From Deltaproteobacteria bacterium (GTDB lineage: Bacteria; Desulfobacterota; Binatia; Binatales; Binataceae): a DNA stretch of 42,313 bases. The stretch lies in assembly GCA_003135135.1 (NCBI GenBank), contig PLDK01000011.1:1-42313 (forward strand), read 5' to 3'. Under the pieces are notes generated by a model. The model searched no databases, had not been told where the DNA came from, and saw only the letters and a list, made by a program, of their open reading frames with translations. Shown one piece after another: positions 2,152 through 15,421 of this stretch (its first letter is position 1; each line of letters opens with the position of its first letter). A program made the position numbers and the translations under genes.

Positions 2152-2598
2152 TCACGGTGCTGCATCCGGTGGGAACTCGACGAGCGCCTCGCCGGTTACG
2201 ACCTGTTCGTCGCGCTGGTTGCGCACCTCCACGTCGATCACGACCCAGCGCGACTTGGCGGTCACGTGCTTGAACTTCACGCTCCCGTGCGGCCTAATGG
2301 TGTCGTCAGGCTTGACGGGGACCAGCCAGCGCGTCTCGAGGCGGCGATGCACCGCGTTCTCCGAGTAAGCCCAATCGGTCAGCATGCGTGTGATCAGGCC
2401 GAAGTTGGTCATCCCGTGCATGATGATGCCGCCGAAATTCGTCTTGCCGAAGCTGCCCGTCATGTAGGCGTCGTCGATGTGTAGCGGATTGTAGTCGAGT
2501 GAGGCGTCGCAGAAGGCGCGGATGCTCTCACGGGAGATACCAAATTCCGTACCCTCAATCCGGTAGCCCGCCACCAGTGTGTCAAAGAATTTGCTCAT
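2152..2598 (-). CDS. MaoC-family (R)-specific enoyl-CoA hydratase, catalytic subunit
   Basis: A 148-residue single hot-dog-fold protein. It carries the (R)-hydratase motif D-x-N-P-x-H in DYNPLHIDDAYM, with Asp35 and His40 as the expected catalytic pair, followed by GIIMHGM on the hot-dog helix. The family adds water to trans-2-enoyl-CoA, or removes it from 3-hydroxyacyl-CoA. It lies 10 bp downstream of a second hot-dog gene lacking the catalytic His, the arrangement of heterodimeric dehydratases such as mycobacterial HadAB/HadBC. A GAGG about 9 nt upstream supports the ATG at 2598. The exact acyl substrate cannot be read from sequence. Confidence 0.88.
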   Translation of the reverse strand: MSKFFDTLVAGYRIEGTEFGISRESIRAFCDASLDYNPLHIDDAYMTGSFGKTNFGGIIMHGMTNFGLITRMLTDWAYSENAVHRRLETRWLVPVKPDDTIRPHGSVKFKHVTAKSRWVVIDVEVRNQRDEQVVTGEALVEFPPDAAP

Positions 2599-2608
2599 GC
2601 TAATCGCC

Positions 2609-3079
2609 TCACATCGGCCGGATGGTCCAGCCGCGGCCGGAGCAGATCACGTCACCCTGCTGATTGAAGAAGACGTTGTCGTGAATGACGAAGAGGCGCT
2701 CTCTCTTGATGAACTTGTCAAGCGCCCGAGCCTGCAGTGTGATCGTGTCGCCCGGGCGCGCGGGACAGTTGTAGCTCCACGATTGGCCGGCATTCACCGT
2801 ACCGGGGCTGCGCATCCAGTCATCTGCCGGTATGCAGGCGAACATCAGCAGGATGTGGATCGACGGCGGGGCGATTAGGCCGTCATAGCGACTCCTGCGC
2901 GCGTATTCCTCGTCGAAATAGAGCGGATGGAGGTCACCTACGGCACGGCAGTAGCGCTGGATTGCCTCTAGAGTCAGCGTATAAGGGATCGTCTTGCGCG
3001 GCTCGCCGGGAACGATGTCGTCCCAGATCTTTCGGCGTTCGGCGTCTTTCCAAAAGTCTGCTTCGAAGTCTTGCTGCAA
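2609..3079 (-). CDS. MaoC-like dehydratase, non-catalytic partner subunit
   Basis: About 156 residues, FAS1-like/MaoC N-terminal type. The active-site-equivalent segment reads GDLHPLYFDEEYA, so the usual Asn and His are replaced by His and Tyr. This is expected for the structural half of a dehydratase heterodimer that helps form the acyl tunnel while the partner (2152-2598) does chemistry. No ATG is available. An in-frame TTG at 3079 sits 6 nt after a good GGAGG, whereas the TTG at 3085 abuts it, so I chose 3079. It is the first gene of a two-gene operon. Confidence 0.82.
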   Translation of the reverse strand: MQQDFEADFWKDAERRKIWDDIVPGEPRKTIPYTLTLEAIQRYCRAVGDLHPLYFDEEYARRSRYDGLIAPPSIHILLMFACIPADDWMRSPGTVNAGQSWSYNCPARPGDTITLQARALDKFIKRERLFVIHDNVFFNQQGDVICSGRGWTIRPM

Positions 3080-3160
3080 GCGCAACCTCCATTAGATTTT
3101 TCGCCGGACGAATTTACCGAGTCGCGCCGTTCGGAGCAATGAGCAAAGATAGCGGAGCCT

Positions 3161-3305: not shown

Positions 3306-3920
3306 CTACTTGTGGAAACTTCGGGCCCAGTCACCTGTCCAGACGACAGATCCTGCAGTGGCGATGTCGATATCAACTTGCTTCGCGACGGTGAGCAATA
3401 GAACGCTCGGGTCTTCCAAACCCCAATCGACGTACGGCACTGAAAAATGAGACTTGGCAATCAGGCTGTTTCCGACTAGCCGACCCTTAACCTCCATAAC
3501 GAATTGGTGTCCCGCCCCGTGAAGTGTCAGCACTCCTCGCAGCTTTGCTTGAAACTGACCATCTGTTCCTAGCTGACCGGTGACCTGCTGAGGCGTGAAA
3601 GTGATTTCCGGATACTTTTGAACTTCGAGAACGCTGTCTTTCATCCGGTTATCACGCGCACCCAAGCCACTCCCGCCGCTTTTGGCATCGACAGTGATGG
3701 AGCCGCCGGCTTCGCCGGTGCCCGGATCGGCTTTGATGATCCCATGCTCAAGCTTGAATGTTCCGTGCGTAGTATGGAGCGCGCCCGGCAAGCGAAACTC
3801 AATCAGTGTTTTTGACGGGTCAAGCTCCAGCGTTCCGGACCGCAATTGCGCCGCCGCCGCCTGATGCACAATGGCCGCCATGGCGAGCACGAATACGAAC
3901 GCGCGAATACTAAATGACAT
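3306..3920 (-). CDS. YceI-family periplasmic protein
   Basis: 204 residues with a cleavable signal peptide (hydrophobic stretch about residues 7-22 ending QAAAAQ). A YceI lipocalin-like barrel follows: LELDPSKTLIEFRLPGALHTTHG near the start, then RDNRMKDSVLEVQKYPEITF, LRGVLTLHG and a final VDIDIA strand. YceI proteins bind isoprenoid or fatty amphiphiles inside a barrel in the periplasm. Its ATG overlaps the end of the aminotransferase gene by 11 bp, so it is translationally linked to the polyketide operon. A role in carrying the lipidic product across the periplasm is my inference. The last gene of the operon. Confidence 0.88.
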   Translation of the reverse strand: MSFSIRAFVFVLAMAAIVHQAAAAQLRSGTLELDPSKTLIEFRLPGALHTTHGTFKLEHGIIKADPGTGEAGGSITVDAKSGGSGLGARDNRMKDSVLEVQKYPEITFTPQQVTGQLGTDGQFQAKLRGVLTLHGAGHQFVMEVKGRLVGNSLIAKSHFSVPYVDWGLEDPSVLLLTVAKQVDIDIATAGSVVWTGDWARSFHK

Positions 3921-5274
3921 TTATGACGCGGCGTGCCATGCCCAGAGCTTCAGTCCAGAAGCCGGTCGAGGCATGCATCGAATCGACGATCACCTCCATC
4001 GCGTCAACGAACTCATCCAGCTGCGATTCGTTTATCACCAGCGCAGGCGCGACCTTGAGCACCATAAAGTTGTTCCCGCAGATTTGGCTGTATATCGCCT
4101 TATCGCGGAAAAGCCGCATCACCAGCACCTGCCCGAACATCGCGGGATGAATTCTCGAGAATGCTTCGAACAGAATTCTGAGGCGAAATTTTTTGGGCGG
4201 ACGGAACTCGATGCCGGACATCATTCCAAGTCCCCGGATCTCCTTGACCATGTCATAGTGCGACAGCCGCGAGATTAACTTCTCGCGAAGTTGTCGTCCT
4301 AATCGTGCGCCGCGCTCGCCCAGGTTGCCGTCCGCGAGCACGTCCATCGTGGCGAGGCCGGCCCGCATCGATAGGCTGTTCTCGCTGTAAGTCGATGTGT
4401 GAATGATCGAACGTTTGAACGAAGTGTAGACGGAATTGTAAACCGCATCCGACATCAGGACCGCCCCTGACGGAATCAGGCCGCCGCTAATCGCCTTTGC
4501 AAGGATCACCATGTCGGGTTCCACCCTGAAGTGGTGTGCCGCGAGAAACGGCCCCGTCCGATACATGCCGGTCTGCACTTCGTCCAGCACGAACAGCGTG
4601 CCATGGCGCCGACATAGCGACTGCGCCTGTTCCAGATAATTTGGCGGTGGAATCAAAACTCCAGCTTCGGCCTGAATCGGTTCTATGACAAACGCCGCGA
4701 ACTTCCTGGACGACAAATGCTTCTCCAACTGCCCCAGATCTCCGAACGGAACTGCCTGGGTCTCAGGAAGCAGTGGGCCAAATTCTGTGGTCCAGAATGG
4801 ATTGTCCATCAGGGACAGCGCGCCGCAGGTGAGTCCGTGAAAGCCGCCTCCTGCGTACAAGATGCCGGCGCGCTTGGTGTTAGCGCGGGCAAACTTGATG
4901 ACGGCTTCGACGCCTTCGCTTCCGGAACTGCAAAAGAACGCTTTCGACAATCTCCCGCCGGCTTGCGTGCATAGCCGCTGCGCCAGCTCGCCGGCCAATT
5001 CCGGCACGTGCCCTTGCAGCATCGCGGGTCCGTTGCGGTCGAGCTCCGCCTTGATGGCGCGTACTACTCCGGGATGATTGTGCCCCACGTTATGAACGCA
5101 GTAGCCGGAATTAAAATCCAGAATCCGCCGGCCATCATCAGTGAAAAGTTCGGAGCCGAGACAGCTCGTGTAATGCACATTCATCCCGAGCACATCGAGC
5201 AGCCGCACCCACTGTGGATTGACGTATTTTTCGTACAGCGGCTGCTGTGCGGATGAGTTTTTTGCCTCTGACAT
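3910..5274 (-). CDS. Class III PLP-dependent aminotransferase
   Basis: A fold-type I, class III (ornithine/4-aminobutyrate-like) aminotransferase of about 454 residues. Visible motifs are the N-terminal YVNPQWVRLLDVLGM, the PLP phosphate-binding FCSSGSEGVEAVIKFAR, the LFVLDEVQTGMYRTG segment with the cofactor-contacting Asp, and ILAKAISGG with the Schiff-base lysine. The N-terminal signature recalls hopanoid-linked (HpnO-like) and similar lipid aminotransferases, but this is from memory. An ATG at 5274 is chosen. A GTG at 5307 would add 11 residues with no better ribosome-binding site. Inside this operon it probably installs an amine on an aldehyde or ketone made by the upstream enzymes. Substrate unproven. 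Confidence 0.85.
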   Translation of the reverse strand: MSEAKNSSAQQPLYEKYVNPQWVRLLDVLGMNVHYTSCLGSELFTDDGRRILDFNSGYCVHNVGHNHPGVVRAIKAELDRNGPAMLQGHVPELAGELAQRLCTQAGGRLSKAFFCSSGSEGVEAVIKFARANTKRAGILYAGGGFHGLTCGALSLMDNPFWTTEFGPLLPETQAVPFGDLGQLEKHLSSRKFAAFVIEPIQAEAGVLIPPPNYLEQAQSLCRRHGTLFVLDEVQTGMYRTGPFLAAHHFRVEPDMVILAKAISGGLIPSGAVLMSDAVYNSVYTSFKRSIIHTSTYSENSLSMRAGLATMDVLADGNLGERGARLGRQLREKLISRLSHYDMVKEIRGLGMMSGIEFRPPKKFRLRILFEAFSRIHPAMFGQVLVMRLFRDKAIYSQICGNNFMVLKVAPALVINESQLDEFVDAMEVIVDSMHASTGFWTEALGMARRVINVI

Positions 5275-5352
5275 AAGGTTGATCACTTTCTCACTTGGAA
5301 GATTCACTTCGTGATGGGTTACATCGCACTAAGGTGGCTCGAATTGATCGAA

Positions 5353-5802
5353 TCAATGTGCAGATACTGCGGGCTGCGAAGCCCACTTCAGGAGCGCCTG
5401 CTTTTGGTCATCGGTCAGGCGCGCCGAGTGATCGAGCGCCGTGTAATCTCCCGGCGGCATCGAACCAGCGCTGATGGACCGCTCGATATTCTTCAGTGCT
5501 TCCGCTCTTTTCTGCTCACCGTAAGTTTGCCAATCAGAAAAATTCAGCACTCTGCGCGCGGAGTTGGCAGCGAGGTGCGTCGGCGAAACAGCCGCGTACC
5601 ATGGTGCGCTTCCTCCGGTCGAATGGCACTCGTAACACGATTGCTGAAGGATCGCGTTCACTTGCGGGTCAGTACTAACTGCGTTCGTAGAACTCGAAAC
5701 TGTAGCCTCGGAAGTGGCCGTCTCCTGGGAGCCTGAACATCCCACGATCAAGACAGCCAGACCAACAAGCCATGCTATTGGAAGTGGAATCTTCAACATC
5801 AT
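5353..5802 (-). CDS. Haem-binding domain lipoprotein
   Basis: About 149 residues beginning MMLKIPLPIAWLVG, with a lipoprotein signal whose lipobox ends VGC. The lipidated protein has one c-type haem motif, CYECH, and a C-terminal SISAGSMPPGDYTALDH block with Met as possible axial ligand, as in small haem-binding domains (PF14376 type). It would sit lipid-anchored in the periplasm and move electrons. The ATG at 5802 is preferred because it has GAAGGTG just upstream and lies 8 bp after the permease stop. A longer reading overlapping the permease is a shadow. Its place in the export/biosynthesis operon suggests redox support of a periplasmic step. Confidence 0.82.
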   Translation of the reverse strand: MMLKIPLPIAWLVGLAVLIVGCSGSQETATSEATVSSSTNAVSTDPQVNAILQQSCYECHSTGGSAPWYAAVSPTHLAANSARRVLNFSDWQTYGEQKRAEALKNIERSISAGSMPPGDYTALDHSARLTDDQKQALLKWASQPAVSAH

Positions 5803-5810
5803 CACACCTT

Positions 5811-7502
5811 CTAGTCGTCGAGGCTCACGAAACGGATGAGTCCGGCGCCGAGGAAAATCATCCCGATGCCCACCGTTGCCGCGAATGGCCACAACGCCGC
5901 CGACGGCGGTTGGCTGCGAATCATCAAATCGTTGAACGCCTGCATGGTCCATGTCGTCGGCATCCAGCGGGCGAGTTCGCGCATCCATCCCGGCTCAAAG
6001 TCCAACGGCCACCAGCATCCGCCGATCGCCGCCATCGCCATGCTGATCGTCACGCCCAGCGGCATCACGGAATCGTGAGCGCGCGAAATCGACGCGACCA
6101 CCAGTCCCAGCGCAGCGGCCGCGAAAGAGATTCCTACCGTCGGTATGATCAACGCGATAGGATTGCGTCCAAGCGTGATTCCGAACAGCGCCCATCCGAC
6201 TGCGAACAGCAACACCATTTGCACAACCCCGACGATGAAACGCGCGAATAATTTTCCGAGCAGAAGACCGGTAAGCGGAGCGCCGCTGACCTGGAGGCGC
6301 TTCAAGGTTCCCCAATCGCGTTCATCAAAGAGCGTCAGCGCAATTCCGAGCATCATGCCAATCAGCAGAAACGTGACGCCGAATCCTGGGACGTACTGAT
6401 CGAAGGCATTCACAGTCACGGCCTCGCCCACTACCGCGGGTTGCTCGACGAATCCGAGGTCTCCGGGGAGCGTGAGCGCCTGAGGCGCCTGGAAGGGCTC
6501 GAGGTCGCCGATCAGATTGCCGTCGCGCAACTCGGGTCCCTTCGGAATCTTGATCGAAAATGCAGCCACCGAAGCCGTTGCGGGAAGGGTTGGATCGAGC
6601 TTGGGCGCAGTCACCGGCTTGGCAAGTTCCGCCAGCTCAGTCTCAGAGATGGGCCTGGGAAAAGAGGGCGGCGGCGGAATATCCGACGCGTGGCTGCCCG
6701 CCATTGTCTTCAGCTTCGCGAGCCAATCTTCGAAAGCGCGATGACTCGACTGCAATTGCGTCAGGTAGTTCTGAATCTTCAGCAGTATCGCCTGGCGCTG
6801 GGAGAGCTGCTGTTGCACGTCCGCCCAGGCTTGGCGCTCGCGCGTTTTTATTGTTGCTTCAGTCGCATCACTGACTTGTTTGATTGCGGCGGCGATCTGC
6901 GTGCGAATCGAAATTTCCAGCGCGGTCTGGGTTCGGGCGATTTGCGAGCGGATCTCCGATTGCTCCGATGCGATCTCTGCCGAGAGCCGTTTGATTTTTT
7001 CGCGCAGATCCTTGCCAGAGGCCTCGATTCGCACTTGCGCCGTCGCCCGCGCTTGGTCGGTGACTCTTCGGCACAATTCGTCGATACGAAGTTCGAGCGC
7101 GTTGACCTCAACCCGCCTGACGGGATCGACGAATAGAATCAGCCGAGGCTGGCGGCCTGCGGCGACGGCCGTGCTGGTTCCGGCCGGAATCACCATCGCA
7201 ATGGGCGTCCGGTCGCGTTGACTTACGAGGCGTCGCGCTTCACCCGGGTCATCGAGCATTTCCAAAGTGACGGCGCGCTCCTGGCGCAAAGCCTGAATTA
7301 TTCCATCCGCCAGTTTCCCGTGATCCAGGTTGATCACGGGCAGGCGAAAGGAATTCGCAGCACCACCGTACAGACTACCGAGCGAATATCCCGCGACCGT
7401 GATGATTACGACCGGCGCGAACAGCAGCATGAACAGAACAATCGGATCCTTGACTAGGAGCCGAGCCTCATTTTGCACAGTGAGCCATATTGCACGAAGC
7501 AT
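5811..7502 (-). CDS. ABC-2 type transporter permease with large extracytoplasmic domain
   Basis: 563 residues. One membrane segment near the N-terminus (about residues 22-45), a long soluble region of roughly 320 residues, then about five membrane segments from residue ~372 to the end. The soluble region contains a predicted coiled coil (residues ~165-270, rich in Ala, Gln, Arg, Glu) followed by a proline-rich stretch. This matches the ABC2_membrane_3 layout (YhgE/Pip- or DrrB-like exporters) that move lipophilic molecules or work with periplasmic partners. It follows its ATPase by 11 bp. The exported substrate is most plausibly the product of the polyketide operon. Confidence 0.85.
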   Translation of the reverse strand: MLRAIWLTVQNEARLLVKDPIVLFMLLFAPVVIITVAGYSLGSLYGGAANSFRLPVINLDHGKLADGIIQALRQERAVTLEMLDDPGEARRLVSQRDRTPIAMVIPAGTSTAVAAGRQPRLILFVDPVRRVEVNALELRIDELCRRVTDQARATAQVRIEASGKDLREKIKRLSAEIASEQSEIRSQIARTQTALEISIRTQIAAAIKQVSDATEATIKTRERQAWADVQQQLSQRQAILLKIQNYLTQLQSSHRAFEDWLAKLKTMAGSHASDIPPPPSFPRPISETELAELAKPVTAPKLDPTLPATASVAAFSIKIPKGPELRDGNLIGDLEPFQAPQALTLPGDLGFVEQPAVVGEAVTVNAFDQYVPGFGVTFLLIGMMLGIALTLFDERDWGTLKRLQVSGAPLTGLLLGKLFARFIVGVVQMVLLFAVGWALFGITLGRNPIALIIPTVGISFAAAALGLVVASISRAHDSVMPLGVTISMAMAAIGGCWWPLDFEPGWMRELARWMPTTWTMQAFNDLMIRSQPPSAALWPFAATVGIGMIFLGAGLIRFVSLDD

Positions 7503-7513
7503 AGCCGATACTT

Positions 7514-8470
7514 TCAGAGCACTTGGTCACGCAGTGTGTGGCCCGTCAGCGCGATGAAGGCGTCCGACAGATTCGGGCTATGTAAGTTGAAATCGATAAC
7601 ATTCACGTCCAAGCCGCGAAGCCCGTACAGCACTTCGGCGACCTGGGCGAGACTGTTCATCTCGAGGGTTGCTTTGCCTTCGATTCCGGCCGCGCCTATC
7701 TCTCGCACACCCGCGAGGCTACCGAAGCGCCCTTTCGGCAACTGCCCGCGATAGGTCAGTTCGATCCGAGGCCGGCCGCCTCCGAGCGAAATCACTTTTT
7801 CGAGGTTGCCCTCGGCGATTAGTTTGCCGCGATCAATAAGCAGCACGCGATCGCAAATGCGTTCCGCTTCTTCCATGTAATGGGTACTGTAGATTATCGC
7901 CGCGCCCGCATCCGCGTAGCGTCGAATCCGCATCAATATCTGTTCGCGCGATTGGAGATCGACGCCGACCGTCGGTTCGTCCAACAGCAGCACAGGGGGC
8001 CGATGAACAATTCCACAGGCGAGGTTGAGAAGGCGCTTCATGCCTCCGGAGAATGCATCCATAGGATCGTCGGCCCGGACGCTGAGGCCCACCTCTTCCA
8101 GCACCCGCTTGCAGCACTCCGTCCCGTCGTCGCGCGAGAGTCCCTGCATACGGGCGAAATGCCATACGTTTTGTGCTGCGCTAAGAGTCGGGTAGAGCGC
8201 GAGCGATTGCGGCACCAGCCCAAGCATGCGTCCCAGCCCGTGCCCGTTGGTTTTTGGCGGCTTACCATTGATCAGAATACGACCGCTATCGGGTCGTAGC
8301 AGGGTGGCGAGGATCGAAAGCGTTGTGGTCTTACCCGCGCCATTGGGTCCCAGCAACCCGGCAATTTCACCGGGCCTCAGTGCGAGGCTGACGTTGTCGA
8401 GTGCGAGACGAGTACCGTAGCTCTTTGAAATCTCGATCGCCTCGAGGATTGGCGCCTCAGCCGGACTCAT
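7514..8470 (-). CDS. ABC transporter ATP-binding protein (DrrA/CcmA type)
   Basis: 318 residues, a single nucleotide-binding domain plus a C-terminal extension of about 90 residues as in DrrA-like drug/lipid exporters. Walker A is GLLGPNGAGKTTTLS, the Q-loop follows at LVPQSL, the signature is FSGGMKRLLNLACG (FSGGM in place of LSGGQ), Walker B is VLLLDEPTVGVD and the switch His is in YSTHYMEEAERI. It powers the adjacent permease. The start is 4 bp after the preceding gene's stop, so the two are co-translated. Confidence 0.93.
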   Translation of the reverse strand: MSPAEAPILEAIEISKSYGTRLALDNVSLALRPGEIAGLLGPNGAGKTTTLSILATLLRPDSGRILINGKPPKTNGHGLGRMLGLVPQSLALYPTLSAAQNVWHFARMQGLSRDDGTECCKRVLEEVGLSVRADDPMDAFSGGMKRLLNLACGIVHRPPVLLLDEPTVGVDLQSREQILMRIRRYADAGAAIIYSTHYMEEAERICDRVLLIDRGKLIAEGNLEKVISLGGGRPRIELTYRGQLPKGRFGSLAGVREIGAAGIEGKATLEMNSLAQVAEVLYGLRGLDVNVIDFNLHSPNLSDAFIALTGHTLRDQVL

Positions 8471-8474
8471 TGGG

Positions 8475-9629
8475 TTATTGTGCCGCCCTCACCATAATTC
8501 GCATCGCGCCGCTCATCAGTGCGCTGAATGCTCCCGGATGCCGCATTAGCGAGTTGATTATTGTTCGCCGGGCGCGAGGATGACGCGCGATCATTAACAA
8601 TCCGTTGGTGACGAGCCAGTAGCCGCGATAGACCCGACGCGCCTCACGTTCGTAAGCTTGCATACTCTCCTGCGTGGCCCCGCGCTTTAGAATTTCAGGC
8701 AGATGCTTGCCGAGCATCAGCGCCGAGTTAAACGCGATCGACAGTCCGTCGCCGGAGATTGAATCTACGAATCCTGCTGCGTCACCGACCAGCACCATGC
8801 GATGGCTGTTGCGACGAGTCACGCCGTGGGCCATCGGCCCGGCTCCTTTAACCGTTGAAATCGCCGGGGCGTTCCCGAGACGCGCCAGTAGGGCCGGAAA
8901 GCGGCTCGCCAGAACGGGTATTTTCGGCTGTTCGATGACTCCATCTTCCCAGACAAAATTGATTCCGACGCTTTTGTCAGAGACCGGAGTCACCACCGCT
9001 TCCCCCTTGTCGTCCACGTAGACTTCGACGAAGTCGGTCCAAGGGCGAATTTTATAATGCTGACGTAGCGCGAACCGGCGCCGGGAGTTCGGAGCCGCGT
9101 CGAGACCCGATGCCTTTCGGAGCGACGAGTGAAGCCCGTCTGCCGCGACGACCAACCTCCCGAATATTTTACCCTCGGTCGTGTACACGACCGCTTCGCT
9201 CGAGGTTGCCTTGTAGCCATTGACCGAGCATCGATGACGTAATACCGCCCCGAGTTCCTCCGCCCGGCGCGCCAGCGCCTCGACCAATACCGTGCGCCTG
9301 ATGCCCATCCCGTGAGAGGGCATGAGCGCTTGCGCCGCGGAGCCGTTTTCCTGGATGAAGCGAATTCCGGCGAATGGAAAAGATGTCGAATGATCAAAAC
9401 GATCGGCGATCCCCAGGCGCTGGAGAGCTTTCACGCCCGGCGGCAGCACGCCTTCGCCGCAAGCCTTATCCGGTGGAAAATCGCGGCGCTCGATTACTAC
9501 GACGGAGAGACCCTGTTCCGCCGCAACAATTGCGACGGCAAGCCCCGCCGGTCCACCGCCGACTACAACGAGATCCCGTACCTTGCGCGCTGGAACCGAT
9601 ACATAGCTTGCGGCGAGAGTGCTAGCCAT
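8475..9629 (-). CDS. FAD-dependent oxidoreductase, geranylgeranyl-reductase-like
   Basis: 384 residues. The N-terminal Rossmann motif is VVVGGGPAGLAVAIVAAEQG, followed by an acidic ERRDFPPDKACGEGVLP block characteristic of the geranylgeranyl reductase/FixC superfamily. A second FAD motif, MVLVGDAAGFVDSISGDGLS, is present near residue 275. Members reduce isoprenoid double bonds or oxidise aromatic and lipid substrates. Enzymes of this type are often found next to type III polyketide synthases, where they are thought to tailor alkyl-resorcinol or pyrone products. It lies 6 bp after the polyketide synthase stop. Confidence 0.88.
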   Translation of the reverse strand: MASTLAASYVSVPARKVRDLVVVGGGPAGLAVAIVAAEQGLSVVVIERRDFPPDKACGEGVLPPGVKALQRLGIADRFDHSTSFPFAGIRFIQENGSAAQALMPSHGMGIRRTVLVEALARRAEELGAVLRHRCSVNGYKATSSEAVVYTTEGKIFGRLVVAADGLHSSLRKASGLDAAPNSRRRFALRQHYKIRPWTDFVEVYVDDKGEAVVTPVSDKSVGINFVWEDGVIEQPKIPVLASRFPALLARLGNAPAISTVKGAGPMAHGVTRRNSHRMVLVGDAAGFVDSISGDGLSIAFNSALMLGKHLPEILKRGATQESMQAYEREARRVYRGYWLVTNGLLMIARHPRARRTIINSLMRHPGAFSALMSGAMRIMVRAAQ

Positions 9630-9635
9630 TCAGCA

Positions 9636-10751
9636 TCACCATTGCAGCAGAACCAACTCGCCGCAGAAGCCGGGACCCACCGATAGCAGCATCCCGTAAT
9701 CACCCGGACGCGCGATATTCGACTCCAGAAAGTCAGCCGCGACAAACAGCACCGATGCGGAGGACAAATTTCCAATCGACGCAAGCGATTTCCATGTCCG
9801 AGCGAGAGCGCATCGCGGAATTTCGAGCGCCGCCTCCATGGCCTGCAGCACTTTCGGTCCACCAGTGTGAGCGATCCAATGCTTGATATCGCGCCGCGAC
9901 AAACCCTGGTCGCTGAGGAAGGAATCCACGCCTTGGCGCAGTTTGTTGCGGACCAGGTCCGGAACCCCAGCCGACAGCACGATCTCGAAGCCGGCGTCCC
10001 CTATGTGCCAGCCCATCATTTGCTCGGTGTCGTGAAAGAAGATCGATCGGGAGGCGATTGTCCTCGGCCAGTGCGGCTCGTTGTTTTTCTCTCCGCCGTT
10101 TACGATCACCGCTGCGGCTCCATCTGCAAAAAGCCCCGATGCGATAACGTTGGCAACCGACTGATCCTTTAGCTGCAGCGTGAGCGAGCAAAGTTCGACG
10201 GAAACAAGGAGTGCGGTATGGCTCGGGAACGCGCGCAGATAGTCGGCGGCTCGTGCGAGGCCGGCTGCTCCGCCGACGCAACCGAGCCCGAAGATGGGAG
10301 TCCGCTTTATATCTGGTCGCATCGACATGCGGTTGATCAGCTTGGCGTCGATGCTGGGAGATGCGATCCCCGTAACCGTCGTGAAGAAGATATGATCGAT
10401 ATCGGTGGGTACAAGACCGGCCTGGCAGAGCGCGGATTCGACGGCTTCTTCGCCAAGTTCGGTCGCGCGTTCGATCCACTTGTCGTTCATCTTCGAGAAC
10501 GAATCGAGTGCGCGGTAATCCTCCATCGGGAGCGCCAGATGACGTCCGCGAACACCAACGGAGCGATGGAGCCGCTCGAAGCGAGCGCGGCCTGCGTCGC
10601 TGCCGTCCCATTCTTTCCAAAGCGCCGCGGAAATCACTTCCTGCGGATAGTAGTTTTGCGGTAGAGCGCGGCCGATCGATCGCAATACCGGGTGCTTCGT
10701 GGCTGAAAGCTGATGCCTTGCCGTGCTATCTATCTTAATCGGGATTTCCAT
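9636..10751 (-). CDS. Type III polyketide synthase
   Basis: A 371-residue homodimeric ketosynthase of the chalcone/stilbene synthase fold. The catalytic Cys-His-Asn triad is visible: Cys158 in GLGCVGGAAGLARA, His295 in HWIAHTGGPKVL and Asn328 in SIGNLSSASVLF. The C-terminal GPGFCGELVLLQW is also typical. Such enzymes extend a fatty acyl starter with malonyl-CoA to alkylpyrones, alkylresorcinols or related lipids. An ATG at 10751 follows GGAAA by 6 nt. The in-frame TTG at 10763 would add four residues. Neighbouring desaturase, reductase, aminotransferase and exporter genes point to a membrane-lipid-like product. Confidence 0.92.
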   Translation of the reverse strand: MEIPIKIDSTARHQLSATKHPVLRSIGRALPQNYYPQEVISAALWKEWDGSDAGRARFERLHRSVGVRGRHLALPMEDYRALDSFSKMNDKWIERATELGEEAVESALCQAGLVPTDIDHIFFTTVTGIASPSIDAKLINRMSMRPDIKRTPIFGLGCVGGAAGLARAADYLRAFPSHTALLVSVELCSLTLQLKDQSVANVIASGLFADGAAAVIVNGGEKNNEPHWPRTIASRSIFFHDTEQMMGWHIGDAGFEIVLSAGVPDLVRNKLRQGVDSFLSDQGLSRRDIKHWIAHTGGPKVLQAMEAALEIPRCALARTWKSLASIGNLSSASVLFVAADFLESNIARPGDYGMLLSVGPGFCGELVLLQW

Positions 10752-10774
10752 TCGATTTTCCAAACATGTGCTTG

Positions 10775-11572
10775 CTAGGCAGCGCGTGTAATAGCGCGCT
10801 TTTTCAGTGCGCTCTTCATCTCTTCGCGGCTGATCTCCAGCGCAGTTAACAGCGGCCAGACCACCCGCGCGAGAAATACCCGGGGGCTTATTCCGGCCCC
10901 CGAACTCGCCAGCCTACGGCGATAATTCGGAATCAGACCGTCGCCGGGCATCTTGAAGTTCGAAAGGACGTAGGCCAGATCGGCCAGGGTTTCCTCGCCG
11001 TCGTTGCTTAGCTCCAACTGGAGCATGGCCCGGTAGAAGCCGGCGTGCGCCGCCTCGTCCCGGCCGACGTAGAGGAAGATCGCCTCCAGCACCTCATCGC
11101 CTGCATCGCGAGCCTTGTTTCTCTGCAAGTTGTAAGCGGCAAAGGTTGCACCCTCCTGGAGCGCGGCGTAGCACGCCATTTGGCGAGCCGTCTGAAACGG
11201 CAGTTGCCACTGCTTTGAAAACGTACCGGTCTCCAATGCCTCGAACTGCGCCGGCGAACGAAGACCGGAGCGGGTCAGGTATTCGCGAAAGACCAACCCA
11301 TGCCTGGACTCTTCAAAGGCCCAATAAGTCAGGAACCACGCCGTTCCAAACATCGAGCGCGACAAATCGAGTCCTTGAGAACTATAGTCCGGTACGTAGA
11401 GTTCTTCGGTGCAAAATATCTCCACGCACTCTCCGACTTCGTCAGTGGCTCTGCCGGTATCCAACTTGTCCCATGGCACGTCGTTGAAAATATTCCAACG
11501 CCGCTTGTTCTCGGCGGTCTCGATGAAATCGAGATAAATCCGATAAGCCTGCTCGCGCATCGTTAAAGGCAT
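10775..11572 (-). CDS. Acyl-ACP desaturase-like di-iron protein
   Basis: 265 residues of the ferritin-like soluble acyl-ACP desaturase family. All six expected iron ligands can be placed: Glu56/57 in CTEELYVPDY, Glu88 and His91 in FEESRHG, Glu140 in LQEGATF, Glu173 and His176 in RDEAAHAGFY. The family introduces a double bond in an acyl chain on ACP using O2 and reduced ferredoxin; some members oxidise other acyl or amine substrates. As first gene of the operon, directly before the polyketide synthase, it may supply an unsaturated starter. Shorter than plant enzymes (about 360 residues mature), like many bacterial forms. Confidence 0.86.
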   Translation of the reverse strand: MPLTMREQAYRIYLDFIETAENKRRWNIFNDVPWDKLDTGRATDEVGECVEIFCTEELYVPDYSSQGLDLSRSMFGTAWFLTYWAFEESRHGLVFREYLTRSGLRSPAQFEALETGTFSKQWQLPFQTARQMACYAALQEGATFAAYNLQRNKARDAGDEVLEAIFLYVGRDEAAHAGFYRAMLQLELSNDGEETLADLAYVLSNFKMPGDGLIPNYRRRLASSGAGISPRVFLARVVWPLLTALEISREEMKSALKKRAITRAA

Positions 11573-12420: not shown

Positions 12421-12436
12421 AGCAAGCCGCTTGCCA
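12421..12436 (-). promoter_or_regulatory. Candidate sigma-54 -24/-12 promoter or dyad operator
   Basis: On the minus strand the sequence TGGCAAGCGGCTTGCT fits the sigma-54 consensus TGGCAYRNNNNTTGCW with one mismatch (A for Y). The same bases also form a near-perfect palindrome (GCAAGC-C-GCTTGC on the plus strand), so it might instead be an activator site. It lies upstream of the secreted protein gene, with a leader of about 150 nt. The adjacent sigma-54 activator makes the assignment plausible. Found by eye. Confidence 0.45.
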
Positions 12437-12567
12437 TCCGTTTACGCTAGTATCAACAGGCAATCGCAAGGCTTTTCATCTCCACACCTCCACGACCGTG
12501 GCGGTTGTCCGAACATTTGAACGCGATAGGAAAGCTTACGTACAAACTTTTGAACGAAATGAAGTGG

Positions 12568-12662: not shown

Positions 12663-13964
12663 ATGACTGAGCATAAACCGAGCAAAAATCTCTGGGCGCT
12701 TAGTTCCCTCGCAGCCACGATGGGGGATGGCGCTGCCGATTTCGCCGCCGACGATCACGAATCTTTTCGCCGGCAAGAATTCGTCTTTGCCTCTCTCAAT
12801 CTCCTGCTGATCGGGGCGCTGTTGGCGCTGCAGGCAATCTCAAGGTTCGTCCGCGGGAAACCTTCAGCATCGGTCATCGTTGTTCTGGCGGTTGGTTTGA
12901 CAGTCCAGGCAGCTCACCTCATCTGGCTTCGCAAGAGAAACGCGACAATTTCTCGACGGACCCGGCGGTGGCTCACGTTCTGGTCTCTCGGATTCAACTC
13001 GACGCTCGCGTTGGTGCTCACTTCGTTAACCATCAGAGGAGATACTGCGTACTACGCCCTGATGCTTCTTCCGGTACTCGAAGCGTCGTTCAGGCTCGGT
13101 CTCGGCGCCACGATCGCAGTGGTCGTGCTGGCGGACTTCATCAGCTTCATGGGCGCCTATGGCCTGAAATTCGGCGAGTACATGGAAGCAGGCGCAATGT
13201 CGGTAATTTACAGCGTGATGGGAGTGCTGGTGTGGCTCCTGGTCAACAATCTTCGCACGCGCGAGGCCAGGTTCGTACGCAATCTCGAGGAACTCGAGCG
13301 CACCCGTCAGCAATTGCTCTCTGAAGAGAAGCTTGCCGCGATCGGCCGATTGTCCAGAGCGATCGCACATGAGATCCGAAATCCTGTTGCGATGATTTCC
13401 AGCTCGCTGGCAACCGCCGCCCGGCCGGGTCAGGACGAAACAGAACGAGAAGAAATGTTCTCGATCGCGGCGAAAGAAGCCGAGCGTCTCGAGCGGCTCA
13501 CCACCGACTTCCTGGTCTATGCGCGTCCGCGCGCCGTACAGATCGCGCGGGTAAACCTCGCCGACACGCTGAACTACGTCGCTGCTGTCGCCCGCGCGCA
13601 CGCGGCCAATGAAGGTGTAAAGATCGAGGGGGCCGTCGACAGCAACCTTGAGGGCAAGTTCGATGCAACCCAGATGCATCAGGCGCTCTTAAACCTGGCG
13701 TTGAACGCTATCGATGCATGCGATCGGGGTGACTTGGTGAAACTCAACGCTCAGATGAACGGACATGGCACGATCCGAATCGACGTAGTTGATCCGGCTG
13801 GACCGATCTCCGCTGAAATTGTGGCGCGCATTTTCGAGCCACTGTTTACTACCAAGCAGAGCGGCAACGGACTTGGTCTCGCGATCGCGCGCAATATCGC
13901 GCGCGCACGGCAGCGATATCACATTGAGAATCAACGAAACGAGGCGGGTATGCTTTTCCATTGA
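12663..13964 (+). CDS. Membrane sensor histidine kinase, frameshifted near its C-terminus
   Basis: 433 residues as read. Five to six hydrophobic segments lie between residues ~41 and ~195, then a short coiled coil and the HisKA domain with phospho-acceptor His236 in SRAIAHEIRNPVAMIS. The HATPase domain shows the N box (LNLALNAIDACD), a weak G1 box, and FEPLFTTKQSGNGLGLAIARNI. After this the frame turns to unrelated ARQRYHIENQ, while another frame continues with the expected RAHGSDITLRINETRR and ends at 14004, 10 bp before the regulator. Restoring one GC unit in the GCGCGCGC run near 13900 rejoins them. Either a real slippage mutation or a sequencing error. Confidence 0.85.
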   Translation: MTEHKPSKNLWALSSLAATMGDGAADFAADDHESFRRQEFVFASLNLLLIGALLALQAISRFVRGKPSASVIVVLAVGLTVQAAHLIWLRKRNATISRRTRRWLTFWSLGFNSTLALVLTSLTIRGDTAYYALMLLPVLEASFRLGLGATIAVVVLADFISFMGAYGLKFGEYMEAGAMSVIYSVMGVLVWLLVNNLRTREARFVRNLEELERTRQQLLSEEKLAAIGRLSRAIAHEIRNPVAMISSSLATAARPGQDETEREEMFSIAAKEAERLERLTTDFLVYARPRAVQIARVNLADTLNYVAAVARAHAANEGVKIEGAVDSNLEGKFDATQMHQALLNLALNAIDACDRGDLVKLNAQMNGHGTIRIDVVDPAGPISAEIVARIFEPLFTTKQSGNGLGLAIARNIARARQRYHIENQRNEAGMLFH

Positions 13965-14014
13965 GATACCGGCACACTCCCCGAGCCAATCTTCTCTCAG
14001 ATAGGGGCCAGACT

Positions 14015-15421
14015 ATGGGCAAGATACTTGTTGTAGATGACGAACCGCACCTGCGGCGAATACTCATCTCCAATTTGAAACAGGAACATCACGAAGTAAT
14101 CGAGGCTGCCGGTGTCAACGATGCGCGAGGCGCGCTTGCCGAGCACACATTCGACGCTGTCATAACCGACCAGAAGATGGGGGATGGTGAAGGATTGGAC
14201 GTCCTGGCCGCGGCGCGGGAAGCCGATCCGAATCTATCCGTCCTTTTTCTGACCGCATTTGCGACAATTGAACTCGCGGTGGAAAGTATGCGCCGCGGCG
14301 CATTTGATTTCATTACGAAGCCCTTCGTTCCTGAAGTTTTGCTGGCATCAGCCACGCGCGCGATGGAGCACACGCGCCTTGTGCGTGAGAACGGCAGGCT
14401 CCGCGACACGGTGGTCCGCCTTGAAGGCTCATCAGAGATCAGCGGGCGCAGTCTCGCAATTCGCCAACTTCGCGAGAAAATTGCGCGCGTTGCACCAACC
14501 AACGCTACCGTCCTCGTCACTGGAGAAACCGGAACCGGCAAGGAGCTGGTTGCCCGTGCAATTCATCGCAGCAGCCTGCGTGCCGAAAAGACACTGATCG
14601 CCGTCAATTGTGCGGCGTTTACCGAAACCCTTCTGGAAAGCGAGCTGTTTGGGCACGAGCGGGGAGCCTTCACCGGTGCCGACCGAGCACGCGAGGGAGT
14701 CTTCGAGGCAGCACACGAAGGTACTCTCTTTCTCGACGAGGCCGCGGAAATGTCGCTGGCCGCACAGGCCAAGCTACTGCGGGTGTTGACGGACGGGCTG
14801 ATTACCCGGCTCGGATCAACCAAGCCCCGGCACACCGATGTGCGGCTGCTGGTCGCGACCAACAGAGATTTGAAGCGGCGGGTAGAAGAGGGCCTCTTTC
14901 GCGAGGACCTGTACTACCGGCTGGCCGTAGTTCCGCTCACGGTTCCTCCGCTGCGCGATCATCGCGAGGACATACCCGAGCTTTGCGCTCTCCTCCTGGC
15001 GCAAGCCGTGCGCGACCTGAATACGCCGCCTCGCAGAATCAGCGCCGAAGCGATTCGCACGCTTGTCAGCTACGATTTTCCGGGGAATATCCGCGAACTT
15101 CGTAACCTCATCGAGCGCGCATGCATTCTCTCGGCCGCGGAGGAAATCACCCCGGAGAACTTCCCGGTGTCAACGCCTCGCAGCGCAAACGGCCTCGCGC
15201 CCCGCAATTCCGCCGAGATCACTCCCGACCAGATCGCCGAAATGATGCCCGAGACGCACAACCTTCGAGACTTTCTGGCCTCCCTGGAAAAGGCGGTCAT
15301 CCAGCGCGCGCTAAAAATAACCGATGGCGCCCAGGCGGAAGTCGCGCGCCGGCTTGGAATGTCGCGGAGCGATCTTTCATACAAGCTCGGCAAACAGCGC
15401 ATCAAAGATGCGCCTGGTTGA
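14015..15421 (+). CDS. NtrC-family sigma-54-dependent response regulator
   Basis: 468 residues from the ATG at 14015, preceded by AGGGG. The receiver domain has the acidic pocket VVDDE, phospho-acceptor Asp52 in ITDQKM and Lys102 in FITKPF. The AAA+ domain has Walker A GETGTGKELVARAIH, the sigma-54 contact loop ERGAFTGADRA and Walker B LFLDEAAEM. The C-terminus is a Fis-type helix-turn-helix (VARRLGMSRSDLSYKL). It is the partner of the upstream kinase and activates sigma-54 promoters by ATP hydrolysis. It is divergently oriented to the secreted-protein gene and polyketide operon, its likely targets. Confidence 0.95.
   Translation: MGKILVVDDEPHLRRILISNLKQEHHEVIEAAGVNDARGALAEHTFDAVITDQKMGDGEGLDVLAAAREADPNLSVLFLTAFATIELAVESMRRGAFDFITKPFVPEVLLASATRAMEHTRLVRENGRLRDTVVRLEGSSEISGRSLAIRQLREKIARVAPTNATVLVTGETGTGKELVARAIHRSSLRAEKTLIAVNCAAFTETLLESELFGHERGAFTGADRAREGVFEAAHEGTLFLDEAAEMSLAAQAKLLRVLTDGLITRLGSTKPRHTDVRLLVATNRDLKRRVEEGLFREDLYYRLAVVPLTVPPLRDHREDIPELCALLLAQAVRDLNTPPRRISAEAIRTLVSYDFPGNIRELRNLIERACILSAAEEITPENFPVSTPRSANGLAPRNSAEITPDQIAEMMPETHNLRDFLASLEKAVIQRALKITDGAQAEVARRLGMSRSDLSYKLGKQRIKDAPG

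Follow-up and report, generated by a model that had tools for sequence, protein, structure and literature searches.

Type III polyketide synthases (PKSs) encoded together with oxidoreductases are known from small lipid biosynthesis operons. PMC10896814 describes the hidABC genes (hierridin) and planctomycetal operons of a methyltransferase, an oxidoreductase and a type III PKS as making long-chain alkylresorcinols, and reports that the 'S. ferox' operon also encodes a lipoprotein and a lipid/isoprenoid-binding protein. Here we analyze a gene cluster at positions 3306-11572 of contig PLDK01000011.1 (assembly GCA_003135135.1; the window is the whole contig stretch of 42,313 nucleotides), from a bacterium of the family Binataceae, which belongs to Candidatus Binatota. 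Like the operons of that paper, the cluster is short and has a type III PKS gene beside a gene for a flavin adenine dinucleotide (FAD)-dependent oxidoreductase (here with a 6-bp gap). Unlike them, as far as that main text describes them, it encodes an aminotransferase (AT), a YceI-family protein, an ATP-binding cassette (ABC) exporter pair and a haem lipoprotein. Pfam matched no methyltransferase in the cluster of eight, in the ninth gene upstream or in the two genes downstream, and identity with a hid-type operon was rejected for this reason.

As judged from sequence similarity, genomes from different phyla carry the genes for AT, type III PKS, FAD enzyme and YceI either side by side or divided into complementary halves. 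We read the locus as the Binataceae version of a conserved lipid-polyketide pathway, with an aminated long-chain polyketide lipid as the best candidate product; we hold this view tentatively, at somewhat less than an even chance. The initial annotation had proposed that all eight genes form one operon for an unsaturated, aminated and exported polyketide lipid. Its core idea, that the genes form a set, is supported by the comparisons below, but the unity of the eight genes and the role given to the desaturase are not.

A conserved gene set in Binataceae

The contig (C18 of a 3.73-Mb genome that is 98% complete) carries eight intact minus-strand open reading frames at 3306-11572, with no internal stops (Table 1). 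In transcript order they encode a desaturase, the type III PKS, the FAD enzyme, the ABC ATPase, the ABC permease, the haem lipoprotein, the class III AT and YceI. From upstream to downstream the gaps are 11, 6, 4, 11, 5 and 45 bp, the last between the haem gene and AT (78 bp if AT starts at an inner ATG), followed by an 11-base overlap of AT and YceI. All eight proteins match a named Pfam family above its cut-off, and the packed minus-strand arrangement noted initially is borne out by coordinates, gaps and families alike.

Conservation was assessed in 96 genomes of the class, 41 from the source family and 55 from other families, with neighbour genes labelled by tblastn plus a second clustering; a first clustering had split the PKS family. 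A PKS match was present in 49 of the 96 genomes, the source genome included. Across Ca. Binataceae genera, a set of seven genes is kept: YceI, FAD enzyme, type III PKS, ABC pair, haem lipoprotein and AT. The closest relative, locus L034 (same genus; PKS 93% identical), keeps the gene order of the 3306-11572 cluster, and in seven loci (L061, L063, L064, L068, L070, L071, L072) YceI-FAD-PKS point one way and ABC ATPase-permease-haem-AT are divergent, although AT is truncated or undetected in three of them (L061, L064, L071). At E <= 1e-140, AT was found in 14 of the 41 family genomes, all with a PKS match and 12 with AT within a few kb of the PKS, and in none of the 55 genomes of other families in the class. 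AT identity across genera is 62-69%. The arrangement is thus not unique to the source genome, as the genes co-occur across Binataceae genera and their kernel across phyla.

The desaturase stands apart. A stretch of about 1.58 kb, which holds the desaturase gene and the gene of a 200-aa protein, is missing from L034, although L034 aligns on both flanks. Relatives of the desaturase occur in 25 of 58 genomes including the source, and the other 24 carry them on contigs without a PKS match, so that the desaturase tells little about the conserved product. The source genome has a second desaturase copy at C8. Since the desaturase adjoins the cluster in the source genome alone, the conserved set has seven members rather than the eight originally grouped, and the word "unsaturated" has to be dropped from the description of the conserved product. 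An alternative is that the desaturase is integral and acts first in an eight-gene pathway to a single unsaturated, aminated lipid. Its position 11 bp from the PKS gene, co-directional and downstream of a sigma-54-like site, suggests that it could shape the acyl starter here; given its absence from the L034 cluster and the location of its relatives in the other 24 carriers, we regard this alternative as quite improbable. We favour the reading that the desaturase is a private addition, which could alter the starter chain.

Compared with its counterpart at L034:14008-14457, the haem gene shows a precise 468-bp inversion. Haem gene and permease lie on opposite strands in all 11 other Binataceae loci that have both (ten genomes), and their co-orientation is private to the source genome, either as a real feature or as an assembly error. 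The initial grouping of the haem gene as a co-oriented operon member does not extend beyond this genome.

A second type III PKS gene is present in the source genome at L033 (G000:C36, 9501-10580). Its product is about 55% identical, an ICMT-family methyltransferase gene is nearby, and the locus resembles an ordinary PKS-methyltransferase locus; several other members of the genus contain close relatives.

Recurrence and separation of the kernel genes in other phyla

Named genomes were scanned with an alignment of AT, because AT is better conserved, and the best 80 of 209 relatives were kept; a scan of the named genomes with the PKS as a single sequence found no relative. Loci were thus chosen by AT alone, and co-location was counted near AT in loci with at least 5.5 kb downstream, which excluded 19 of 65 acidobacterial loci for short flanks. 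Loci were grouped by record title, except that L095, titled only Proteobacteria, was counted as alphaproteobacterial and the Binataceae were grouped manually; the seven Binataceae loci repeat family genomes (L084 G033, L085 G026, L086 G018, L089 G039, L094 G024, L099 G038, L104 G017).

Among the 46 scorable acidobacterial loci within these best 80 of 209 relatives, FAD was found in 40, YceI in 42 (at most 8 kb from AT), PKS in 21 and at least one of these in 45. The alphaproteobacterial loci had PKS and FAD in 6/6 and YceI in 0/6. In the Binataceae loci (n=7) the counts were PKS 6, FAD 5, YceI 5, and ABC pair with haem gene 6. Near the kernel, none of the 46 acidobacterial or 6 alphaproteobacterial loci showed the exporter or the haem gene. 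By these sequence matches, the kernel is AT-PKS-FAD(-YceI), which recurs in Acidobacteriota and, without YceI, in Alphaproteobacteria; the ABC-2 exporter and, usually, the haem lipoprotein are Binataceae additions. As a rough control, ten loci selected by desaturase had no match to the other cluster genes at E < 1e-20, which may be too strict for short matches to YceI or the haem gene.

Other genes were also seen at these loci. A tetratricopeptide repeat (TPR)-like gene with a signal-like start frequently lies 3' of AT, mostly in Acidobacteriota (21 loci; e.g. L073:10350-11234, L087:9936-10760), and of two that were tested, one matches TPR below the threshold. In Methylocystis, genes upstream of AT-PKS-FAD (L105:5345-8462) encode an AMP-binding ligase, a Haem_oxygenas_2 iron enzyme and, by motif, a short-chain-dehydrogenase-like protein, possibly a fuller version of the pathway.

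Of 28 AT loci listed without a neighbouring PKS, the genomes of 25 were searched for a PKS; the other three were L085, L156 and L105, the last of which does have the PKS. A PKS was found elsewhere in 14, and 13 of the 14 PKS neighbourhoods were compared. Six acidobacterial genomes carry exact complementary halves over two loci: AT and YceI at one and PKS and FAD at the other (L130/L174, L128/L176, L117/L177), AT and FAD apart from PKS and YceI (L157/L179, L154/L180), or AT alone apart from PKS, FAD and YceI (L114/L182). Three further genomes combine AT-FAD-YceI with a solitary PKS (L160/L183, L152/L184, L149/L185), and the remaining four pairs share a member or have a distant PKS (L101/L175, L120/L181, L159/L178, L139/L186). 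The complementary splits are the best evidence that AT, PKS, FAD and YceI may serve one function. In Binataceae, L085 keeps AT, FAD, YceI and exporter with the end of the PKS only, the PKS of its genome G026 being at L058. The FAD frame at L085:2311-3570 opens with the last PKS residues (...CSELILLRW), a pattern that would fit decay of the PKS gene up to its 3' end.

The splits also bear on the view that the locus is an ordinary alkylresorcinol/alkylpyrone cluster in which AT, the haem gene and the ABC pair are unrelated in function to the PKS and FAD genes beside them. Within the source genus, family and class, PKS and FAD pairs do occur without a nearby AT (L035, L038, L039, L049, L051), and operons of PKS, FAD enzyme and methyltransferase are described in PMC10896814. 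With AT-PKS-FAD linkage across at least three phyla, complementary splits included, we consider this view very unlikely.

A stronger rival is an AT-FAD-YceI kernel that acts on another lipid (an acyl-derived ketone or aldehyde, or an isoprenoid), with the PKS as an optional substrate supplier. FAD and YceI accompany AT oftener than PKS does in the acidobacterial loci (40 and 42 vs 21), and in 11 of the 25 searched genomes no PKS was found. Of the three PKS-less loci that the sampled FAD tree includes (L087, L091, L096), L087 and L096 group with L093 and L110, which lack PKS in their own stretches, the part of those two genomes that was covered. On the other side are the 14 genomes that keep a PKS elsewhere, six of them as complementary splits with FAD or YceI, and the alphaproteobacterial loci, all of which have PKS and FAD without YceI. 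We judge an optional PKS to be rather unlikely.

The PKS-FAD half of the source cluster appears to have a history of its own. In a tree of 79 PKS sequences, all AT-adjacent PKSs except those of the source and L034 fall in one 48-row clade (98/99), which also contains some PKSs without nearby AT and excludes the source genus. Placement of the source genus with the AT-linked PKSs was not rejected (approximately unbiased (AU) test, p 0.198). In the FAD tree, the source genus lies outside the AT-linked FAD clade, and its inclusion was rejected (AU p 0.010, for groups named after a first tree had been inspected). The source AT groups with most Binataceae and Alphaproteobacteria in the AT tree. Five repeat rows (L084, L086, L089, L099, L104) were omitted from the trees and 20 more rows thinned for the PKS topology test; acidobacterial rows were sampled for the FAD and AT trees, L085 (Binataceae) being counted as acidobacterial in the former. 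The simplest reading is that PKS and FAD of the source genus are probably replacements from another PKS-FAD lineage. For the FAD enzyme the AU test supports replacement; for the PKS taken alone it is not proven.

Several points weigh against a conserved pathway to an aminated polyketide lipid. The 11 genomes in which no PKS was found, in assemblies given without completeness, nevertheless keep AT-FAD-YceI (10) or AT-YceI (1); seven of these loci are titled Bryobacterales, Solibacteraceae or Terriglobia. Within the family, 33 genomes have a PKS match and AT is missing from 19 of these at E <= 1e-140, AT is present in just 2 of 7 genomes of the source genus, and genome G005 has a PKS-FAD pair (L035) of the same type as that of the 3306-11572 cluster but no AT. 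Inference of the product from relatives is also weak, because the source PKS and FAD enzyme are probably not orthologues of the AT-linked ones, and sequence features reveal nothing about the substrate of AT.

Predicted enzymes, transport and control

Table 1. Features of the cluster and its upstream flank in the window
Feature	Position	Strand	Evidence
Histidine kinase gene, divergent from cluster	12663..13964	+	HisKA 42 bits, HATPase_c 50 bits
NtrC-family response regulator gene	13961..15421	+	Sigma54_activat 230 bits, Response_reg 83, HTH_8 39
Sigma-54 (-24/-12) promoter-like site ATGGCAAGCGGCTTGCT	12421..12437	-	11/13 consensus positions
Putative secreted protein, 200 aa	11660..12262	-	no Pfam match; not in L034 cluster
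Acyl-ACP-desaturase-like di-iron protein, outside conserved set	10775..11572	-	FA_desaturase_2 64.4 bits (cut-off 22.7)
Type III polyketide synthase	9636..10763	-	Chal_sti_synt_N/C (PF00195/PF02797) 79.1/61.4 bits
FAD-dependent oxidoreductase (geranylgeranyl-reductase superfamily or group A monooxygenase)	8475..9629	-	FAD_binding_3 81.8 bits
ABC exporter ATPase	7514..8470	-	ABC_tran 109.5 bits; Walker A GPNGAGKT, FSGGM, LLLDEP
ABC-2 type permease	5811..7502	-	ABC2_membrane_3 107.6 bits
Haem_bd putative lipoprotein	5353..5805	-	PF14376 98.5 bits; CYECH; lipobox-like cysteine
Class III pyridoxal phosphate (PLP) aminotransferase, PigE-like subfamily	3910..5307	-	Aminotran_3 281.7 bits
YceI-family protein, putative periplasmic lipid carrier	3306..3920	-	PF04264 68.3 bits

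The Cys-His-Asn triad of the PKS, reported as intact before, is confirmed as C162, H299 and N332 and is invariant in 16 sequences. The closest solved structure is Mycobacterium tuberculosis Pks11 (PDB 4JAP; 302 bits with the single sequence, 399 with the alignment), followed by CylI; assignment as DpgA was rejected (189 bits vs a cut-off of 425). According to passages of PMC6274091, Pks11 is a long-chain alkylpyrone synthase that takes long acyl-CoAs and yields pyrones, and a Trp/Gly switch in ArsB/ArsC directs cyclisation. W252 of the PKS aligns by eye with the switch position. A call between pyrone and resorcinol from this residue was rejected because the pyrone former Pks11 also has Trp there. 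The PKS would extend a long fatty acyl thioester with malonyl units to give an alkylpyrone, an alkylresorcinol or an open-chain beta-keto lipid.

The FAD enzyme would then reduce or hydroxylate this lipid. Its best NCBIfam model is the geranylgeranyl reductase superfamily (TIGR02032, 128.5 bits, below the cut-off of 158.8), and among solved structures it comes closest to halogenases and monooxygenases. Reductase, as in the earlier label "FAD reductase", is one option, which the sequence does not separate from monooxygenase. The solved relatives would fit a redox-active alkylquinone-type product, in which an alkylresorcinol is hydroxylated by an FAD monooxygenase, and its lipid or electrons are handled in the periplasm by YceI and the haem lipoprotein. 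The haem gene accompanies the exporter in 11 Binataceae loci, which is consistent with this proposal, while two observations argue against it, namely the top NCBIfam model of the FAD protein and the lack of a similar haem gene around the kernel outside Binataceae (46 acidobacterial loci, 6 alphaproteobacterial), and we think it unlikely.

In the amino-polyketide reading that we favour, the PLP enzyme AT would install an amine on a keto or aldehyde carbon. Its closest named model is PigE (NF053554), the prodigiosin 2-methyl-3-n-amyl-pyrrole (MAP) aminotransferase, at 387.1 bits against a cut-off of 850. AT has 465 aa, its best stretch covers profile positions 373-728 of 837, and it does not have the full-length two-part form of PigE. 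The best solved match is 4ppm, which we take to be PigE. The PLP lysine, assigned by motif, is K271 in LAKAISGG and is invariant in 10 sequences.

The ABC pair would move the lipid out of the inner membrane and YceI would carry it in the periplasm. The ATPase scores 229.8 bits against the DrrA drug exporter model TIGR01188, below the cut-off of 312.45. Amination and export by the ABC pair, both proposed in the initial annotation, are still inferences; the PigE match is far under its cut-off, and in the named loci that could be scored, Binataceae alone had the ABC pair with the kernel.

The desaturase matches solved desaturases weakly. E88, H91, E140, E173 and H176 align with residues of the castor enzyme that we take to be its iron ligands. 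Thus, five of the six ligands reported earlier can be aligned; the first is beyond the alignment, and E56/E57 are candidates for it.

Outside the cluster, a ninth gene on the same strand (gap 87) lies upstream of the 11572 boundary drawn initially. Its product has several cysteines, and the gene accompanies the desaturase. Two tandem MaoC/FAS1_DH-type dehydratase-like genes at 2152-3085 follow YceI in the same orientation after 220 bp; nothing closely related to them was seen beside the relatives' clusters.

Farther upstream are the divergent kinase gene and a regulator gene whose product has receiver, sigma-54 activator and Fis-type helix-turn-helix domains; RpoN (Sigma54_DBD) is encoded at C39. 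By sequence, the components of sigma-54 two-component control, namely an NtrC-type activator gene, a -24/-12-like site and RpoN, are all present. Sites were scored against what we take to be the sigma-54 consensus. Kinase homologues stand beside the cluster in L034, L062, L067, L075 and L085, and every Binataceae locus in which the pair directly adjoins the cluster (these five and the source; six genomes) has a site in the intergenic region ahead of a cluster gene. In L034 the equivalent site is 161 bp before the PKS gene; in L085 it precedes the FAD gene and was found in a whole-locus scan, not upstream of the genes first scanned. Nine pair-less loci (L061, L063, L064, L068, L070, L071, L072, L073, L094) had no site before PKS, ABC ATPase or AT.

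The background in the named loci is 64 sites in 2.59 million strand-nucleotides, or 0.0074 per 300 nt, and the ATGGCAAGCGGCTTGCT pattern occurs twice in the source genome, equal to the reversed control. The association of pair and site is not general, because no sigma-54-like site was found in L065, where the pair is about 3.5 kb from the FAD gene, and none before PKS, ABC ATPase or AT in five non-Binataceae loci that contain a kinase and a regulator gene somewhere in their stretch (L108, L109, L113, L146, L153). Control of the cluster by the divergent kinase/NtrC pair through the sigma-54-like site, overlooked in the initial annotation, is likely. Two extra genes lie between the site and the PKS gene, and the transcript therefore likely comprises nine genes.

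Comparison with described systems

We know of no set of AT, FAD enzyme and YceI in the Azotobacter ars operon. What that operon shares with the present locus, according to passages of PMC6274091, is a long-chain type III PKS for envelope alkylresorcinols or alkylpyrones; its PKSs are described there as coupled to the fatty acid synthase ArsA. The terms "aminotransferase" and "YceI" do not occur in the main text of PMC10896814, and neither these two terms nor "desaturase" occur in the main text of a cyanobacterial type III PKS survey (PMC8086630). For Binatota, a passage of PMC8692599 lists three gene clusters from Antarctic soil, two for non-ribosomal peptide synthetases and one for a terpene. 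In the open-access literature we found no description of an aminotransferase-bearing type III PKS set kept together across phyla.

It is possible, if doubtful, that a PigE-like AT, a type III PKS and a flavoenzyme together produce amino-polyketide membrane lipids of a class not yet described, which YceI handles and which is spread across Acidobacteriota, Alphaproteobacteria and Binatota. Binataceae would have added dedicated ABC export and, in some members, a kinase/NtrC switch, and the PKS-FAD half would be exchangeable and swapped in the source genus. Should the product prove to be an envelope lipid with an amine group, it would represent a lipid type new for bacteria, made by soil lineages that are mostly uncultured, and an undescribed kind of bacterial lipid may then be widespread. 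The splits, the PKS-less lineages and the apparent PKS-FAD swap offer a ready way to learn which of the enzymes determine the product. Type III PKSs are already known to make lipid polyketides; the conserved set examined here differs by its aminotransferase.

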